Source: a virus. From it: a DNA stretch of 40,139 nucleotides. Positions 4,146 to 38,329 of this stretch are shown here, in pieces. A program made the position numbers and the translations under genes. The stretch covers positions 1-40,139 of IMG/VR virus record IMGVR_UViG_3300025000_000039. The stretch is one strand, 5' to 3'. The stretch's first letter is position 1; each line of letters starts with the position of its first letter. Below the pieces are notes generated by a model. It saw only the letters and a list, made by a program, of their open reading frames with translations, made no database searches and was not told the origin of the DNA.

Positions 4146-4351
4146 GCCCCCTTGTTCAATCCGTCCTGAAAGAACTTTCCCTTGACCCCGTTGTCGGCCA
4201 CATTGCCTACGATGTACATGGACGCCAGCGCAACTACCGCGGTCATGGCCGGACCCTCGGAGTCGGCCTTGAAGATTACCGCGCTCACAAGGTAGATGAC
4301 GAGGATCGCCAGCAGGGAATAGACGAAAGCCTTGCCCTTGGTGATTTTCAC
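4142..4351 (-). CDS. Holin
   Basis: A 69-residue protein with two membrane helices (AFVYSLLAILVIYLVSAVIF and MTAVVALASMYIVGNVAD) and a charged C-terminus (GKFFQDGLNKGA), the plan of a class II holin. It would form the membrane hole that starts lysis. The GTG start at 4351 overlaps the TGA of the DUF261 gene; the frame further upstream is a shadow of that gene. Position between the DUF261 gene and the spanin genes supports the call. Confidence 0.75.
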   Translation of the reverse strand: MKITKGKAFVYSLLAILVIYLVSAVIFKADSEGPAMTAVVALASMYIVGNVADNGVKGKFFQDGLNKGA

Positions 4352-14252: not shown

Positions 14253-14587
14253 ATCACCGCCTCGGGAGATTCCTTGACGTAGACCTCTTGGTGATGTCCG
14301 GGAAACTCCGGGAACGTCTTCGGAGGCATGACGATTTCGAACGTGCGCGAATTCCACTTGATCTTGTGCGTAGCCAGCACGGCCACGCTCGACGGCAGGC
14401 AGAAGAACCCATCCGCGCGCACCTCGGTCGCCCCGCCAACCTTCGCACGGTCGCCCGAAAGCTCGGTGAAAGAGCCTTTGAACGGCGAGCCGGTGATGGC
14501 GTTCCACGTGTTGTCGTAGGGCCAGGTCGCGGAGGCCGTGAAGGCGTAGACAGCGATGGACTGGGTGAAGAAGCGCTCGATGCCCAT
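14249..14587 (-). CDS. Head closure (stopper) protein
   Basis: A 112-residue protein (MGIERFFTQSIAVYAFTASA, RADGFFCLPSSVAVLATHKI, RTFEIVMPPKTFPEFPGHHQ EVYV). Size, beta-rich sequence and position between the connector and the gp10-like gene fit a head-tail stopper such as HK97 gp7 or SPP1 gp16. No sequence motif is decisive. Confidence 0.7.
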   Translation of the reverse strand: MGIERFFTQSIAVYAFTASATWPYDNTWNAITGSPFKGSFTELSGDRAKVGGATEVRADGFFCLPSSVAVLATHKIKWNSRTFEIVMPPKTFPEFPGHHQEVYVKESPEAVI

Positions 14588-20017: not shown

Positions 20018-20088
20018 TTGCAGGGGAGGGAGTCGAACCCTCAGCTTCGGCTTATGGGGCCGACGTGTTTCCGCTACACCACCCTACG
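20018..20088 (-). tRNA. tRNA-Met (CAT), initiator-like
   Basis: The minus strand folds as CGTAGGG acceptor, GTGT/ACAC D stem, TCGGC-CCCATAA-GCCGA anticodon arm, four-base variable loop and GAGGG-TTCGACT-CCCTC T arm; CCA is not encoded and the discriminator is A. Pair 1:72 is C-A, the hallmark of bacterial initiator tRNA. The anticodon stem lacks three consecutive G-C pairs with G on the 5' side, pair 11:24 is elongator-like, and position 33 is C instead of T. Confidence 0.85.
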
Positions 20089-25818: not shown

Positions 25819-26451
25819 TCATTTCTCACTAGGAGCCTCGATGCAATAATTAAATCCATATTTAGAAATAGCATCCACCAATTGCACCCCCGTTAGAGCA
25901 AACCATTCTCCTGCTATCCGGCTATCGGCAAATATTTTATGAAGCATCCTTTCGTCAGACTTGCGATTTATGCTTTGCTTTGTAGCAATAACCGCAATAT
26001 GAGGGTTTCCTGTTTTTAACGATGAGAGTCTTTTCCTGATATCCCTTGTCGATCCAATTTTATAGTTATTAGTCCCAACAGTGTGAGCTATGTATACAAA
26101 CCCAACTTGATAAGCCACGCCCTTTCTGTTTGTTTTCAAATCCAGATCGTCAAAAATATTGAATTGTGTCGGAATCTCACCACCGAGGTCCATAATCCTT
26201 TTTTGACATATATCCAAAGATTCCTGAATAATATCATCATCCGTCATGTTTATACGATTCCAAGCGATAACAGCTTCCGAAAATTCATCTTCGTATTGTG
26301 TTGCCGATCCACAACGGGGACATTCAATCTTGGTTTCGCTCCCCTCTGTGCTGATATTAGGCGTCCCGCCACATAGGCAAGGCCTGAATGCAATTGCAAC
26401 GTCAATCTCATTTAACATTTCTGAGCTTCTTATGTACGCCTTGGCATCCAT
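25819..26451 (-). CDS. Lar-like zinc ribbon fused to GIY-YIG nuclease
   Basis: A 210-residue two-domain protein. The N-terminus has CLCGGTPNI and ECPRCGSATQ followed by EAVIAWNRIN, the pattern of Lar restriction-alleviation proteins. From about residue 110, VGFVYIAHTVGTNNYKIGST, RDIRKRLSSLKTGNPHIAV, DERMLHKIFADSRIAGEWFA is a T5orf172/MUG113-type GIY-YIG domain. Sequence is AT-richer than the neighbours. Its ATG follows a terminator-like leader directly. It may protect phage DNA from, or act on, foreign DNA; the combined role is inference. Confidence 0.75.
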   Translation of the reverse strand: MDAKAYIRSSEMLNEIDVAIAFRPCLCGGTPNISTEGSETKIECPRCGSATQYEDEFSEAVIAWNRINMTDDDIIQESLDICQKRIMDLGGEIPTQFNIFDDLDLKTNRKGVAYQVGFVYIAHTVGTNNYKIGSTRDIRKRLSSLKTGNPHIAVIATKQSINRKSDERMLHKIFADSRIAGEWFALTGVQLVDAISKYGFNYCIEAPSEK

Positions 26452-26466
26452 TTTGTACCCCTGAAT

Positions 26467-26537
26467 AAAAAAGCGCCTGATGAATCCCCCGGCATGGGTT
26501 CGCCTGCTTCACGGACAGGCTGGATTCATCTGACGCT
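26467..26537 (-). terminator. Three-way-junction terminator / leader RNA (copy A)
   Basis: On the minus strand AGCGTCAGATGAATCC (26522-26537) pairs with GGATTCATCAGGCGCT (26472-26487), 15 of 16 positions. The 34 bases inside can form two small hairpins (GCCTG/CAGGC and CCC/GGG). Six T follow, then AGGGG and the ATG at 26451. The predicted start site lies at about 26536-26540, at the foot of the stem, so this is either a small RNA of about 70 bases or an attenuator of the gene at 25819-26451. Confidence 0.75.
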
Positions 26538-26542
26538 CTTGG

Positions 26543-26571
26543 AAATTACGCCCCGTGAAGGCCGCTGTCAA
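26543..26571 (-). promoter_or_regulatory. Promoter P2 of leader A
   Basis: TTGACA (26566-26571), 17 bases, TAATTT (26543-26548). The start site would be at the CAAGAGC sequence opening the hairpin. Confidence 0.6.
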
Positions 26572-26599
26572 GCCGGTATGCCGCCCGCACGACCCTGAA

Positions 26600-26628
26600 A
26601 GCATAGCACAGGAAGAGGCGGGCGTCAA
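26600..26628 (-). promoter_or_regulatory. Promoter P1 of leader A
   Basis: TTGACG (26623-26628), 17 bases, TATGCT (26600-26605). It overlaps the stop codon of the upstream membrane gene and lies 28 bases upstream of P2. Confidence 0.55.
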
Positions 26629-26822
26629 TTGCTCCAGTCGGTCATATCAAAAGCCCACACAATAAAACAAGCGAATGACACAAACACGGCAAAAATAGCA
26701 TGTACGATCAACCCTATCATGATGCCCTCGCGAATGCCTCTGGAGAATATTGGAACCGCCCAAAACACCAAAGCATAAAAAACCGATACGCCTATATACC
26801 CCATAACCCGCTTTGCTTTCAT
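26625..26822 (-). CDS. Small two-helix membrane protein
   Basis: A 65-residue protein (MKAKRVMGYIGVSVFYALVF) with helices at about residues 8-27 and 34-57 (IMIGLIVHAIFAVFVSFACF). AAGGGGG lies five bases upstream of the ATG at 26822; a GTG one codon earlier is an alternative that gives a GTGA overlap. It is the last gene of the radical SAM operon. No family recognised. Confidence 0.65.
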   Translation of the reverse strand: MKAKRVMGYIGVSVFYALVFWAVPIFSRGIREGIMIGLIVHAIFAVFVSFACFIVWAFDMTDWSN

Positions 26823-27163
26823 CACTTCCCCCTTTTGGCTATCGCCTCTTCGGCCTGCCTTGCCCGCAATGCCTTCTTGTTCCGCTTGTACTCCTTGAGC
26901 ATCGCCTTACACGCTTTGGCTTCGTCATGCCGGGCAGAGTTGCGGATGTCGCCGTTCAGGCACCAGCCGAAATAGTCGTCAATGTAGATTACGGGCTCTG
27001 TCATAGGATTCAAAAAACTAAGTGGCCCCTTCACGGCGCGATATTGGCCGATTATTTTCTCAGCCTCTTTCATGGAGCGCGTTTTTTCTTCGCAATGATG
27101 CGAAAACAACTCCTCATAGGCGCCGCAATATGGGCAAGTTTCATACGCCGGTATGCGTTTCAT
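26822..27163 (-). CDS. Cys/His protein with GWCxNGDxxNS motif
   Basis: A 113-residue protein. The N-terminus has CPYCGAYEELFSHHCEE, a probable zinc site. The centre has IDDYFGWCLNGDIRNSARHD, and the C-terminal 45 residues are a basic helix (MLKEYKRNKKALRARQAEEA). The centre shares GWCxNGDxxNS with the small protein at 28348-28584 on the other side of the radical SAM gene. GGAGG lies seven bases upstream of the ATG. It overlaps the end of the radical SAM gene by 23 bases. Confidence 0.65.
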   Translation of the reverse strand: MKRIPAYETCPYCGAYEELFSHHCEEKTRSMKEAEKIIGQYRAVKGPLSFLNPMTEPVIYIDDYFGWCLNGDIRNSARHDEAKACKAMLKEYKRNKKALRARQAEEAIAKRGK

Positions 27164-28355
27164 GACTCATCCTCCCTATCGCCTCTTCCCTGTCCTTCGC
27201 CTTGATCGCCTCGACATCCTCCGGCCCGAACTCCGGCGTCCGTATCAACCCGTGCGTGTACAGCAGATCCCTGTAGTCCTTAGACACAAGCCAGCCCTCC
27301 CGCTTGCAGTCCTCGTACAGCGGAGTGCCCGGATAAGGCGTCGCGATGTAAATGTTCCGCTGATCAAGCGGGAGATGGTTCGCATAGTCCAGCGTCGTCC
27401 GCATGTCGTCATGGGTTTCGCCGGGATACCCGATGATGAAAAAGCCGCACGTCTTGATGCCCTCCGCCTTCAGGTCGTGGACAAGCGAAAACGCCTCGTT
27501 GAACGGCATCCATTTGCTTCCCAGCCGCATCAGGCGGGCCGTGGACGCGTTCCCCGTCTCGAAAGGCAGGGAAACACGCCAGCACCCCGATTGACGCAAC
27601 CTCGGCACGAATTGGCGAAGTTCGCGGGCGGATATCCCGTTCGGCGTTGACCAAGCGATACCGCGCGCTCTCAGAGCCCGCATGATCCACGAAAATAGCC
27701 CCGGATCGCTGATTGCATTGTCGTCCTCGATGAAGATTTCCCGGATACCGGCGGCGACAAGGGCGTCAAGATGCGCGATGATCTTCGCTCGGGAGTAGTA
27801 CCGCACCCCACCCCAGTACCCATTGACCCCGCAGAATCCGCAGTGACGGTCGCATCCCCGGGAAAACTCCATGGGCATCCAGCGGCCGGTAAGGGATTGC
27901 AGATCATGCGGCGCCCTCATGGACCAATACGGCGAGATGCGATCCACCGATACCGGAGGGTATTCGATGTCACTGAATACCTTCCCGGGGAAGAGAGCAA
28001 GCTCGCCGTCGCCCCGGAAGACTTGGTCCACCCCATAAGGCGGAGGAACGGCGGCGGCGTGAAAGCCCCCCGCGATAACTTTCGCCCCGGACATCGAAGC
28101 CATTTCGGCTACGGCCTCGTATCCGGCGTGCTGGATGGAGAATTGCGCCGAGATTCCGACAACGTCCCATCCGAGGCTGAGGACCGCCTCAAGGCCGGTC
28201 ATCCCGTGGAGGTGGAGGTCAAGAGTCTGCGCGTCCCATCCCCATCGGCGGGCGTTGTGCTCGATGGACCAGAGGCCGAAGGGCGGCATGTAGGTGAGTT
28301 TCTGCGTCGGGCGCGCGGGCTCCGGGAGCTTGAGAAGGAGAAGGCGGTTACTCAT
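27141..28355 (-). CDS. Radical SAM enzyme with B12-binding-like N-terminus
   Basis: A 404-residue protein. Residues 1-135 have the plan of a cobalamin-binding domain (DVVGISAQFSIQHAGYEAVA, VIAGGFHAAAVPPPYGVDQV, FRGDGELAL). The radical SAM motif is SRGCDRHCGFC (Cys168, 172, 175), with the usual FIEDDNAISDPGLFSWIMRA, LPFETGNASTARLMRLGSKW and FFIIGYPGETHDDMRTTLDY segments. Reaction type (methylation, cyclisation or other) cannot be told. The start at 28355 overlaps the upstream gene by eight bases. Rare in a genome of this size. Confidence 0.9.
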   Translation of the reverse strand: MSNRLLLLKLPEPARPTQKLTYMPPFGLWSIEHNARRWGWDAQTLDLHLHGMTGLEAVLSLGWDVVGISAQFSIQHAGYEAVAEMASMSGAKVIAGGFHAAAVPPPYGVDQVFRGDGELALFPGKVFSDIEYPPVSVDRISPYWSMRAPHDLQSLTGRWMPMEFSRGCDRHCGFCGVNGYWGGVRYYSRAKIIAHLDALVAAGIREIFIEDDNAISDPGLFSWIMRALRARGIAWSTPNGISARELRQFVPRLRQSGCWRVSLPFETGNASTARLMRLGSKWMPFNEAFSLVHDLKAEGIKTCGFFIIGYPGETHDDMRTTLDYANHLPLDQRNIYIATPYPGTPLYEDCKREGWLVSKDYRDLLYTHGLIRTPEFGPEDVEAIKAKDREEAIGRMSHETHTGV

Positions 28356-28584
28356 GACCCGGTTTTCCGTCTGGCCAGTATTTGGAGTTATGAACATCCC
28401 CATTGCGGCACCATCCCCATCGATAACCTAGGTAGAGCATTTCCACCGGATCAGGAAATGCATCTCCGGCCCTTAACGACAAAAGTAAATCTATTGTCGG
28501 GTAGGATATTTGAATGGTTAATCTTTTAATTCTACCTTCCACCCCACTATATTCAGAATCAAGACTCGTAATCTGGTTATCCAT
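28348..28584 (-). CDS. Small protein with GWCxNGDxxNS motif
   Basis: A 78-residue protein (MDNQITSLDSEYSGVEGRIK). The C-terminal third holds DPVEMLYLGYRWGWCRNGDV HNS and ends KYWPDGKPGHE. The motif is shared with the protein at 26822-27163. GGAGG precedes the ATG at 28584. As the gene directly before the radical SAM enzyme and overlapping it, it is a candidate partner or substrate; this is inference. Confidence 0.65.
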   Translation of the reverse strand: MDNQITSLDSEYSGVEGRIKRLTIQISYPTIDLLLSLRAGDAFPDPVEMLYLGYRWGWCRNGDVHNSKYWPDGKPGHE

Positions 28585-28624
28585 CCTTTCCTCCTTGTGC
28601 TTCATCGGGCTAACAATTGCTTAA

Positions 28625-28804
28625 TTAGACGTACCTGCTTAATGAATCGCAAACCCTTTCAAGGTCTGAAATATCATCGTCCTTTCCTTCCATTAATTCA
28701 TCAACTGTATCTTGCAACTCTCTCAAATCGTCGCGGTCTTTTTCAAGACGTTTGATAATTTTCTGTAGTTGTATTCGAGCCTGTTTTATTCCGGCAACTT
28801 TCAT
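28625..28804 (-). CDS. 59-residue coiled-coil protein
   Basis: A short frame (MKVAGIKQARIQLQKIIKRL, DLRELQDTVDELMEGKDDD) with a clear heptad pattern. AAGGGGG lies upstream of the ATG, which overlaps the TGA of the gene at 28801-28974. No family recognised. Confidence 0.65.
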   Translation of the reverse strand: MKVAGIKQARIQLQKIIKRLEKDRDDLRELQDTVDELMEGKDDDISDLERVCDSLSRYV

Positions 28805-28974
28805 AATTCCCCCTTTGCCAACTTGTCAGCGCAATCCGCCATCCTCATCCTCGGACACCATTCCGGCAACTTCCCTACGACCTCCCTCCTCAAGGTCGCG
28901 CACGTCCTGCGGCCGGTTATCGCGCTATGGGTATATGCGGGGCATTTCAGGGAGGAGCAGGTACGGTCAGTCAT
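28801..28974 (-). CDS. 57-residue Cys-rich protein
   Basis: A short frame (MTDRTCSSLKCPAYTHSAIT, REVVGKLPEWCPRMRMADCA) with five cysteines, suggesting a metal site. GGAGG lies seven bases upstream of the ATG, which is inside the end of the helicase gene; the stop overlaps the next ATG. No family recognised. Confidence 0.6.
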   Translation of the reverse strand: MTDRTCSSLKCPAYTHSAITGRRTCATLRREVVGKLPEWCPRMRMADCADKLAKGEL

Positions 28975-30256
28975 TTTGGACCTCCGGTTTTTCGATGAAC
29001 TTGGTCAGCCTTGGAATATATATCAGATTGCATACTCCGGTTGGCCCGTTCCTGTTTTTCGCTACTATCAGCTCGGTAGGTATCTTGTCGTCTGTGCATT
29101 CCTTGTCGCGGTGCAGAAACATTACCACGTCCGCATCTTGTTCAAGACTCCGGCTCTCAGCGAGATTGGCAAGATTCGGCCTCTTGCCCTCCGAATCCCG
29201 GACAAGCTGGGAAAGCATTATGATCGGGATCTTCAATTCCTTCGCCATGCCCTTTACTTCCCGGCTTATGACGGCAACCTGTTCATGCCTCGGAATGCGC
29301 GGTTGTTCGGCGTCGATCAAGCTCATGTAGTCGATCATGATTATCTTGCATTTATCAACGTGGACCATTCGGCGGGCCTTTGCCTTGAGCTCTGATATCT
29401 TTATCCCGCTGGTTTCATCAATCCACAATGGCGCATTCCCTATCTCCATCATCGTGTCTTCCATCCGGGCAACATTGTTTTCGGATTTGTACAGGCCATT
29501 GTCTATTCCCCATGAATTATACCCGGTCATGCTTGCCAATATGCGTAGCTCAAGTTGTTTCGCCGTCATTTCCACCGAAAAGAACCCGGCCGGTATTCTG
29601 CGCATGACCGCGATATTCTCAATCAGGTTAAGCGCAAGGGCTGTTTTCCCCACCGATGGCCGCGCCGCGATGATTATATATTCTCCATCCCTGAAGCCGG
29701 TTATCCCGCGAAGTGACTCGAAATGGCTATCTACGCCTTTTATCTGGCCCCTCGTCTTGATATTCCACTGGACTTGTTCGGCGACCGAGTTTATATACCC
29801 TCCTGCGTTTTTATACCCATTCGCGCAATCTCCGAGAACCACGGATGAAATTTCATTCTCGATGCCGTTTGCGATGTCAATGCCTTTTTCTCCCAACTGC
29901 TCAAGTCTTGCCCTTGCTCCGTCGATTATCGCGGATGTCGCCCGCTTGACCGATAAATCCTTGACCATCTCCAAATAATGGTCAACGTTGGCGGATGTAT
30001 AGGTCATCCCGGCAATCATGGCGATATCCGGGATCGCATCGGCGGCTCCTCTTTTTTTGGCCTCGGATGAAACCGCCTTCAGGTCGGGGTTGGTTCCGGC
30101 ACGATGCAACCGGATGATGTCGTCGAACAAGTCGCGGTGAATCTTGCTTCCGAAATCTGCCGAGCCAACACGGGAAGAAAGCCGCTCTATCGTCGCCGGA
30201 TCGAGCATGAGGGCGCACAAAACCATTCCCTCGGCCTCGCTGTTGAAAAAGTTCAT
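28967..30256 (-). CDS. dnaB: Replicative DNA helicase (DnaB-like)
   Basis: A 429-residue DnaB-type helicase. The N-terminal domain (AEGMVLCALMLDPATIERLS) is followed by the RecA-like core: Walker A AARPSVGKTALA (about 198-209), FFSVEMTAKQLELRILASMT, IIMIDYMSLIDAEQP (Walker B) and LSQLVRDSEGKRPNLANLAE. It unwinds DNA at the phage fork. The start at 30256 is fixed by the ATGA overlap with the DUF6291-like gene, a probable initiator or loader. Confidence 0.95.
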   Translation of the reverse strand: MNFFNSEAEGMVLCALMLDPATIERLSSRVGSADFGSKIHRDLFDDIIRLHRAGTNPDLKAVSSEAKKRGAADAIPDIAMIAGMTYTSANVDHYLEMVKDLSVKRATSAIIDGARARLEQLGEKGIDIANGIENEISSVVLGDCANGYKNAGGYINSVAEQVQWNIKTRGQIKGVDSHFESLRGITGFRDGEYIIIAARPSVGKTALALNLIENIAVMRRIPAGFFSVEMTAKQLELRILASMTGYNSWGIDNGLYKSENNVARMEDTMMEIGNAPLWIDETSGIKISELKAKARRMVHVDKCKIIMIDYMSLIDAEQPRIPRHEQVAVISREVKGMAKELKIPIIMLSQLVRDSEGKRPNLANLAESRSLEQDADVVMFLHRDKECTDDKIPTELIVAKNRNGPTGVCNLIYIPRLTKFIEKPEVQND

Positions 30257-31026
30257 TGCATGGCTTCCCATTCTTCTTTGGTCGCAACACGGTCCCATCC
30301 GCAATCCTTGCAACACCCCGGACCCAGCCGCTCACTCCCGCAGATAAGGCATACCCTTTTGGGTTTGACCGGCTCAACGACAGGCGCGGAAGCAGGTTTC
30401 TGCTTCCTAACTTCGTCAACCACCCATTTTCTGATAGCAAGGTCATCGCGCTTGTATTTGTAGCCCTTCATGGCCTTTGCGGTCGAAAGCGTCTCGATGC
30501 AAGCGACGGTAAACTCTTCTCCGAACTCGGAAACAAGAGAGAGCCTTTGAGTATCTGTCATGAGAACGTTCTTCTCTTTCCCGAAAATATGTCTTGGTTC
30601 TTCGTTTTTAAGGTTCTTCGGTTTTGGTGTTTGATCATTTACATTATCATTTACATTATCATTTACATTATCATTTACATTATCATTAGGTTCTTTAGTT
30701 TCATAACCTATGGTTATTTCTTTTTTAACCATAGGTTCTTTAGTTTCATAACCTATGGTTATTTCTTTTTTAACCATAGGTTCTTTAGTTTCATAACCTA
30801 TGGTTTTCGGTCTTCCGCCTCTCTTCCCGTTGCTATATCTATCGTTATTGGCGTCTATCTGCGGCTTGATAAGTGTAAAAATATTTACTTCCATTCCAAT
30901 GAGTTCAGTCTCTTCGCCTTCAATGGCGTACTTCATTATAGCCATAGACAGACGGCAAAACGATTCTTCCGGGAGCGTCTTTATCGCATCATAAAATGAC
31001 CTGTAAAATACAAACGAATCTCTCAT
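30253..31026 (-). CDS. DUF6291-like replication protein with internal repeats
   Basis: A 257-residue protein. The N-terminus (MRDSFVFYRSFYDAIKTLPE, IKPQIDANNDRYSNGKRGGR) is the DUF6291-type domain found before phage helicases. Residues about 76-127 are repeats: TIGYETKEPMVKKEI twice and a third partial copy, then NDNV four times. A charged centre follows, and the end has a zinc ribbon (CLICGSERLGPGCCKDCGWD). It probably starts replication or loads DnaB. The repeat DNA is AT-rich and may be the origin. Confidence 0.75.
   Translation of the reverse strand: MRDSFVFYRSFYDAIKTLPEESFCRLSMAIMKYAIEGEETELIGMEVNIFTLIKPQIDANNDRYSNGKRGGRPKTIGYETKEPMVKKEITIGYETKEPMVKKEITIGYETKEPNDNVNDNVNDNVNDNVNDQTPKPKNLKNEEPRHIFGKEKNVLMTDTQRLSLVSEFGEEFTVACIETLSTAKAMKGYKYKRDDLAIRKWVVDEVRKQKPASAPVVEPVKPKRVCLICGSERLGPGCCKDCGWDRVATKEEWEAMQ
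30635..30805. repeat. Tandem repeats inside replication gene, candidate origin
   Basis: Four copies of TCATTTACATTA (30635-30682) are followed by a 45-base unit repeated twice and begun a third time (30705-30805). Each 45-base unit holds AACCTATGGTT and AACCATAGGTT as an 11-bp inverted repeat with an AT-rich spacer. The block is much more AT-rich than its surroundings. Repeats inside the replication initiator gene are the usual place for an origin in lambdoid-type phages, so an origin is likely but unproven. Confidence 0.7.
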
Positions 31027-31199
31027 ATATCCCTCGCGGAATTGATGATCTCGTGTTTTTCTGGAATGTCTGAATTTATGATTACGGCGAGCAAATCACC
31101 CTTGTCTTTTGGCCATATTTTGATTCCTCGGCTATTCATTGCGACGGCAAGCCTGAGAAGTCGATAGGCAAGGATTGGAGGGTATGTATCTATATCCAT
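31023..31199 (-). CDS. 58-residue hypothetical protein
   Basis: A short frame (MDIDTYPPILAYRLLRLAVA, IKIWPKDKGDLLAVIINSDI). The site GGAGA lies five bases before the ATG. The stop overlaps the start of the replication gene. The leader is the terminator-like element B. No family recognised. Confidence 0.65.
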   Translation of the reverse strand: MDIDTYPPILAYRLLRLAVAMNSRGIKIWPKDKGDLLAVIINSDIPEKHEIINSARDI

Positions 31200-31214
31200 T
31201 TTTATCTCCAGAAA

Positions 31215-31287
31215 GGAAAAGCCCTTTAGTTCCCCGCGCTGGTGAGGCGCTGTCCGGCGTGTTCGCGCCGTAGGGAGCTAAAGGGCT
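31215..31287 (-). terminator. Three-way-junction terminator / leader RNA (copy B)
   Basis: AGCCCTTTAGCTCCCT (31272-31287) pairs with GGGGAACTAAAGGGCT (31220-31235), 15 of 16 positions counting one G-T. The 36 bases inside can form two hairpins (CGGCG/CGCCG and GCGC/GCGC). TTTTCCTTTCT follows, then GGAGA and the ATG at 31199. The predicted start (about 31286-31288) is at the foot of the stem, exactly as in copy A, though the sequence differs. Confidence 0.75.
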
Positions 31288-31292
31288 CTTGC

Positions 31293-31321
31293 ATTATCGC
31301 CCCGAACAAGACGATCGTCAA
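31293..31321 (-). promoter_or_regulatory. Promoter P2 of leader B
   Basis: TTGACG (31316-31321), 17 bases, GATAAT (31293-31298). The start would be at CAAGAGC. Confidence 0.7.
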
Positions 31322-31347
31322 CGGGTTACCATCCAGTTGACGCTTCG

Positions 31348-31376
31348 ATCCTAGCACGCAAGCCGCCCGAAGTCAA
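31348..31376 (-). promoter_or_regulatory. Promoter P1 of leader B
   Basis: TTGACT (31371-31376), 17 bases, TAGGAT (31348-31353), 26 bases upstream of P2. Confidence 0.7.
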
Positions 31377-38299: not shown

Positions 38300-38329
38300 A
38301 TTATACGTCCGGCCGTCCGGCTTTGTCAA
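38300..38329 (-). promoter_or_regulatory. Promoter of the XRE gene with repeated operator-like spacer
   Basis: TTGACA (38324-38329), 18 bases, TATAAT (38300-38305), both perfect. The spacer on the minus strand is AA followed by GCCGGACG twice, a likely binding site for the XRE protein. Confidence 0.8.

Follow-up and report, generated by a model that had tools for sequence, protein, structure and literature searches.

Two tandem-promoter leaders of a viral contig as likely C4-like antisense-RNA attenuators

Introduction

The 40,139-base viral contig of IMG/VR record IMGVR_UViG_3300025000_000039 (the whole stretch analysed here, hereafter the window) carries two leaders on its minus strand, in each of which two promoters of the same direction, P1 and P2, precede a stem-rich structure, a T run and a gene. 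This arrangement raises the question of what the structure does. A preliminary description had regarded it as a short phage RNA, an attenuator or a riboswitch-like element. Here, we propose that each leader is likely a C4-like antisense-RNA attenuator and that the two copies differ in loop specificity. Our best reading is that the leaders belong to a new C4-like class, in which a short RNA from P2 controls the read-through of the P1 RNA at a shared terminator and so probably switches phage development on or off. Two features behind this reading, the antisense match of the loops to the P1 transcript and the C4-like antirepressor context, are overlooked in the preliminary description.

Results and discussion

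A leader design shared by uncultured phages

The tandem promoters, the CAAGAGC word, the stem, the T run and the ribosome binding site with its ATG were present letter for letter in both leaders, as previously described, and a search of the whole window with the covariance model R1 (see below) returned exactly these two copies. The design is shared by 21 modules in ~14 lineages of uncultured phages, and all carriers are metagenomic. Two sigma-70-like promoters come first, followed by a three-way-junction stem that begins at the second start site and by a T run, a Shine-Dalgarno (SD) sequence and a start codon. Homologues of a radical SAM gene in the window led to L001-L003, which have the same design with different stem letters. 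A viral collection was scanned with a pattern of two promoters plus AGAG that left the stem and loops unconstrained, and all matches with a strong three-way-junction fold turned out to be the same module (L012/L016, L025, L027/L028, L030 and L042). Relatives of the DnaB helicase, collected with no promoter condition, provided L166 (two copies), L167 and L190. With the common leader of L012 and L016 counted once, the starting set comprised 15 modules, to which the statistics below refer unless stated otherwise.

Stem identity between pairs of modules averaged 58% and was as low as 36%. A P2 promoter starting exactly at the structure was kept across modules. The model R1, a check that the preliminary description had suggested, was built from the alignment of the 15 P2 cores and found six modules outside its training set, namely L169, a third copy in the L166 contig (L321), two copies in L344, L353 and L354.

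Searches in other sources were negative. Among bacterial and archaeal genomes, a pattern scan gave 32 loci, none of which was a module on inspection. In shallow first looks, R1 produced only two weak matches, both in one genome, among 393 genomes from the phylum of a Spirochaetes metagenome-assembled genome, and none among 398 genomes from the phylum of a Desulfocucumis genome, both results being weak negatives. No R1 match was obtained in phage P1 and seven other phage or prophage records. Overall, cultured phages and ~790 bacterial genomes contained no clear module, at limited sensitivity. A scan with a stem-sequence pattern returned mostly noise, and the antirepressor alignment was too diverse for scanning.

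A covarying three-way junction with a terminator-like end

The core of the predicted P2 RNA spans 26470..26539 (-) in leader 1 and 31218..31289 (-) in leader 2, scoring 75.7 and 52.7 bits with R1, of which both are training members. The stem of leader 1 pairs 26539-26522 with 26487-26470 around 34 inner bases, which form hairpin 1 (26520-26502, loop b' 26514-26508) and hairpin 2 (26498-26488, loop a' 26495-26491). In leader 2, the pairing of 31289-31272 with 31235-31218 encloses 36 inner bases with hairpin 1 (31270-31255, loop b' 31265-31260) and hairpin 2 (31250-31236, loop 31246-31240). CAAGAGC follows P2 in both leaders. The stems had been reported as 16 positions long with one mismatch each; the mismatch stands, and the length becomes 18 positions once the AG/TT ends are included. 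The paired sequences do differ between the copies as reported, with only 42% of the stem letters identical.

Folding of both leaders, also suggested in the preliminary description, predicted two inner hairpins enclosed by a long stem (-37.4 and -40.3 kcal/mol), far more stable than shuffled sequences (z = -5.9 for leader 1 and -5.4 for leader 2; 0/200 shuffles as good). The earlier proposal had been staked on covariation in homologous leaders, and covariation was found. In the alignment of the 15 cores, paired cells amounted to 95.7%, compensatory double changes occurred in 21 of the 25 pairs, and the covariation score reached 0.724, compared with 0.194 (sd 0.024) after shuffling and at most 0.164 with the partners slid. 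G-U cells greatly outnumbered A-C cells (24 versus 3), which points to RNA of the leader strand, rather than DNA, as the folded molecule. Judged from these alignments, the P2-core fold is under selection.

A T run of 4-8 closes the stem in all 21 modules, so that each has the stable stem with an immediate T run of an intrinsic (Rho-independent) terminator and carries a predicted terminator; the SD starts at most 11 nt from the stem in 20 of them. In leader 1, the T run (T6, 26467..26472, -), an intrinsic-terminator-like end, is followed by AGGGG and an ATG at 26451, and in leader 2, T4 (31217..31220, -) is followed by TGGAG and an ATG at 31199. A fold that covaries across phages and a T run just ahead of the SD support the earlier idea of a short phage RNA or attenuator. 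The riboswitch-like reading found no support, because variability is highest in the unpaired loops, which show no conserved unpaired ligand-binding core and are complementary to upstream sites. Rfam searches at gathering and permissive thresholds assigned no family to the leaders and detected only two tRNAs in the window. These tRNA genes lie at 646-717 and 20018-20088 (-).

Hairpin loops complementary to upstream sites on the same strand

In leader 1, P1 (TTGACG-17-TATGCT with TG before the -10; 26600..26628, -), in an arrangement kept in relatives, and P2 (TTGACA-17-TAATTT; 26543..26571, -) were read from the sequence, with a gap of 28 bases between them. Sequence reading and a promoter scan placed P1 of leader 2 (TTGACT-17-TAGGAT, again with TG before the -10) at 31348..31376 (-) and P2 (TTGACG-17-GATAAT) at 31293..31321 (-), 26 bases apart. 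The consensus promoter scan of the region gave 4 matches against 3.9 expected and thus no excess over chance; what speaks for the promoters is therefore their conserved arrangement in other phages. Read from the sequence, P1 is predicted to start at or close to the beginning of an upstream hairpin, hairpin A, and P2 at the beginning of the stem. Only the P1 RNA would thus contain the upstream sites a and b described next, and the P2 RNA is predicted to be the loop-bearing, self-terminating structure alone.

The loop of hairpin 1, 5-8 bases long in nearly all modules, is complementary to a site in the P2 spacer (site b), and the loop of hairpin 2 to a segment between P1 and P2 (site a), which gives a nested antisense order a-b-b'-a'. 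Loop-site comparison of leader 1 located site a, CGGCAT, at 26578..26583 (-), matching ATGCCG of hairpin 2, and site b, CTTCACGGG, at 26552..26560 (-) in the P2 spacer, where CCGTGAAG pairs with CTTCACGG. In leader 2, site b (TGTTCG, 31303..31308, -) also lies in the P2 spacer and is the complement of the hairpin 1 loop CGAACA, while site a (CTGG, 31333..31336, -) is short. Further pairs are GTGCTGG with CCAGCAC in L167 and CCGCCAG with CTGGCGG in L344. The upstream sites themselves sit in hairpins, site a in hairpin A, whose 3' arm contains the P2 -35, and site b in hairpin B within the P2 spacer, and the stems of both hairpins are own-specific (0/20,000 each). Based on the predicted fold and this own-versus-cross stem test, hairpin A occupies 26567..26593 (-) in leader 1, beginning near the predicted P1 start, and 31317..31341 (-) in leader 2, as GTCAAC..GTTGAC.

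Loops matched their own upstream sites better than those of other modules, with scores of 15.7 (own) versus 10.0 (cross) for hairpin 1 with b and 15.0 versus 9.9 for hairpin 2 with a; 0/20,000 permutations were as good in either case. Controls with swapped sites and with direct orientation were not significant. The hairpin 1 signal was limited to about -26..-4, with a sharp peak at -26..-12 (z 11.6), and the hairpin 2 signal to -50..-28 (z ~6.8); both were flat elsewhere. The six held-out modules gave 32/20,000 for hairpin 1 with b (p = 0.0016) and 119/20,000 for hairpin 2 with a (p = 0.006), and all 21 modules together gave 0/20,000 for both. A duplex-energy test of the whole inner region failed to discriminate, the own pair being best in only 2 of 15 rows; long flexible duplexes swamp the loop signal, and therefore the loop-based test was used. 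As far as sequence comparison can tell, loops and sites change together, and loop pairing is well supported.

A proposed switch and the points against it

In the proposed mechanism, the P1 RNA would have the layout A-B-S-hp1-hp2-S'-U run, that is, hairpin A (loop a), hairpin B (loop b) and then the three-way-junction terminator, and its read-through would yield the mRNA. The P2 RNA would lack A-B. Because P2 starts exactly at the terminator stem, it would produce only a self-terminating RNA of ~75 nt, in which loop b' matches b and loop a' matches a. Since A-B is complementary to hp2-hp1 in antiparallel order, pairing could take place in cis within the P1 RNA or in trans with the P2 RNA. On the nascent P1 RNA, the loops of A and B would kiss hairpins 2 and 1 in cis before S' is made, which would keep S in a closed loop, hinder the terminator and leave the gene on. 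P2 RNA that already exists, either from a resident phage or by build-up, would instead bind A and B in trans, so that the terminator is free and the gene is off. Such a switch would serve RNA immunity and the timing of antirepressor and replication genes, a function suggested by the gene context and by the analogies with phages P1 and P4.

More tentatively, the leaders could be an RNA-only phage switch in which tandem promoters on the same strand provide both target and antisense, cis kissing antiterminates and the short RNA represses in trans. The immunity specificities would then be loop-coded, quickly diverging and mutually independent, with up to three per phage.

Several points weigh against this picture. 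The promoters and the termination are predictions. The minimum free energy (MFE) fold of the P1 RNA always holds the full terminator, and cis antitermination would therefore have to be kinetic. We infer the direction of the effect (on or off), which the sequence does not fix, and the opposite sign, with kissing that favours termination, may be compatible with the sequence as well. No clean P1 -35 is present in L167 and L190, the a:a' match of leader 2 is a weak one of just 4 bp, and L169 is weak in both loop matches. Finally, the genes behind the window leaders are a T5orf172 gene for leader 1 and a 58-aa open reading frame (ORF) with replication genes for leader 2, with no clear antirepressor among them.

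Comparison with known RNAs and alternative explanations

The closest known system is C4 (RF01695, phages P1/P7), which sits upstream of ant. In phage P1, the order is two promoters, a1, b1, C4, a2, b2, icd and ant. The leaders resemble C4 in having two upstream promoters, an RNA of ~75 nt with a three-way junction of an outer stem and inner hairpins, and upstream targets a and b on the same strand with the complements ordered b', a'. An antirepressor in the regulated operon is a further likeness, found directly in 10 of the 21 modules, where the next gene has an antirepressor-type domain (ANT/KilAC, AntA, Bro-N or Rha; L001 second copy, L003, L016, L025, L027, L030, L167, L190, L344 first copy and L169), and not clearly in the window. 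The C4 loops a' and b' bind their targets, b' at the ribosome site (PMC5320573; PMC12197685), and c4-a1b1 is a listed motif (PMC2864571).

There are also clear differences. Both pairing segments are hairpin loops in the leaders, whereas a' of phage P1 is single-stranded beside a hairpin. A promoter of its own sets the first base of the leader RNA, which also has its own T run, and sites a and b lie inside or beside that promoter. RNase P processing of a longer precursor generates the 5' end of C4; here it may be unneeded, since P2 starts at the structure. No second target like a2/b2 was found at the ribosome site, whereas a2/b2 of phage P1 directly follow C4. In 12 module-bearing records searched with E up to 10, the RF01695 model gave no match at the leaders and only two weak, chance-like matches away from them (positive control phage P1, 68.8 bits), and the model of c4-2 (RF02944), which by its name we take to be a C4-related motif, gave no match. 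The leader RNAs would thus work partly as C4 does, yet we do not class them with it, because there is neither a C4 or c4-2 model match nor an a2/b2 equivalent.

The element order and the type of downstream gene, both as in c4-icd-ant of phage P1, would also suit a P2 RNA that acts as in that phage, on a second target over the ribosome site of the downstream gene, where it represses translation or causes Rho termination, rather than on its own terminator. Such a target would be expected right after the structure, as in phage P1, but the 59 bases after the stem contained no own-specific loop complement (p ~0.12-0.13), and, apart from its own leader, the leader 1 RNA had just one further a-b pair in the window, a partial match at 14543, deep in the structural-gene region. 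We therefore consider this action unlikely. It is also rather improbable that the a/b pairing is just an internal fold of the P1 RNA, which stabilises the mRNA or always antiterminates while the P2 RNA is idle in trans. Both partners do occur in nested order within one P1 RNA, but such a fold would have no need of the separate P2 promoter that is kept at the start of the structure across modules.

A DNA-level explanation, in which a, b, a' and b' are repressor binding sites or cruciforms and RNA folding is incidental, could draw on the GTCAAC/GTTGAC dyads that overlap the P2 -35. The excess of G-U over A-C cells, the location of the complementary letters in hairpin loops and the variable dyad spacing (15-19 bases from GTC to TTGA, by eye), unlike that of a dimer operator, make it very improbable. 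Least credible of all is that the structure is just a strong terminator that also stabilises the 5' end, that compaction brought the promoters there and that a Q-like or other phage protein antiterminates. This view fits a stem running from the start site to a T run, but it leaves the covarying complementarity between loops and upstream sites unexplained, and no shared protein was traced to an antitermination role.

Other antisense systems share parts of the proposed attenuator. The CI RNA of satellite phage P4 acts on a replication operon. It is a short RNA from an untranslated leader whose antisense pairing controls transcription termination, with targets both upstream and downstream (PMC4825925), whereas only upstream targets were found for the leaders. 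In addition, the terminator of the leaders is the RNA itself. Plasmid antisense RNAs of the pT181 type come from the opposite strand. Their kissing-loop binding to the nascent leader lets a terminator form (PMC3753616). The antisense RNA of the leaders differs in lying on the same strand, inside the target leader. For IsrK of prophage Gifsy-1, we know of no three-way junction with its own upstream loop sites. IsrK has in common with the leaders a terminated short RNA and a read-through mRNA from one region (PMC4825925).

The proposed reading would add to the C4 type of control RNA, known from phages P1/P7 and their relatives, a class that occurs in many uncultured phages and escapes existing models. 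Its design would be compact, with promoter choice deciding whether an RNA serves as regulator or as message. Through the loop code, specificity could be read directly from sequence, and cross-immunity between phages would therefore be predictable and testable. The leaders may also be a natural model for orthogonal RNA attenuators.

Genes behind the leaders and further observations

In the window, leader 1 is followed by a gene for a 210-aa protein with a MUG113/T5orf172 (GIY-YIG-like) domain according to Pfam (25819..26451, -). The first gene after leader 2 is the 58-aa ORF read from the sequence (31023..31199, -), behind which lie a DUF6291 protein with a partial replisome-organizer match (30253-31026, -) and, further downstream, the DnaB helicase (28967-30316, -). 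A small ORF of 58-60 aa also comes next in the first copy of L001, the second copy of L344 and L354. By eye, the 58-aa ORF of the window looks related to the 58-aa ORF after the replication leader of L001, and the ORFs of L344 and L354 look related to each other. In L042, a replication loader comes next, and in L012 a nucleotidyltransferase, unlike in L016, which shares the leader of L012. The remaining modules are followed by a helix-turn-helix protein or a protein of unknown kind.

The radical SAM gene (27141-28403, -), which is B12-binding, lies inside the replication block; it has ~77% identity in L002 and L003 and a tblastn match in only 5 of 50,697 phage records. The 110-aa ORF ahead of the terminase gene has, directly in front of its ATG, a GCCGGGGAAAACGTCGGCGGGGG hairpin that follows a promoter (TTGACG-17-TAGACT; 25777-25690, -). 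A nearly identical promoter with a GCCGGGGAAAACGTCGGCGGGGG-type hairpin precedes a different ORF in L003 (~4225-4290), and another occurs in L036. At 38329 (-), a good promoter (TTGACA-17-TATAAT) stands before an ORF resembling a helix-turn-helix regulator, possibly a repressor or Cro gene.

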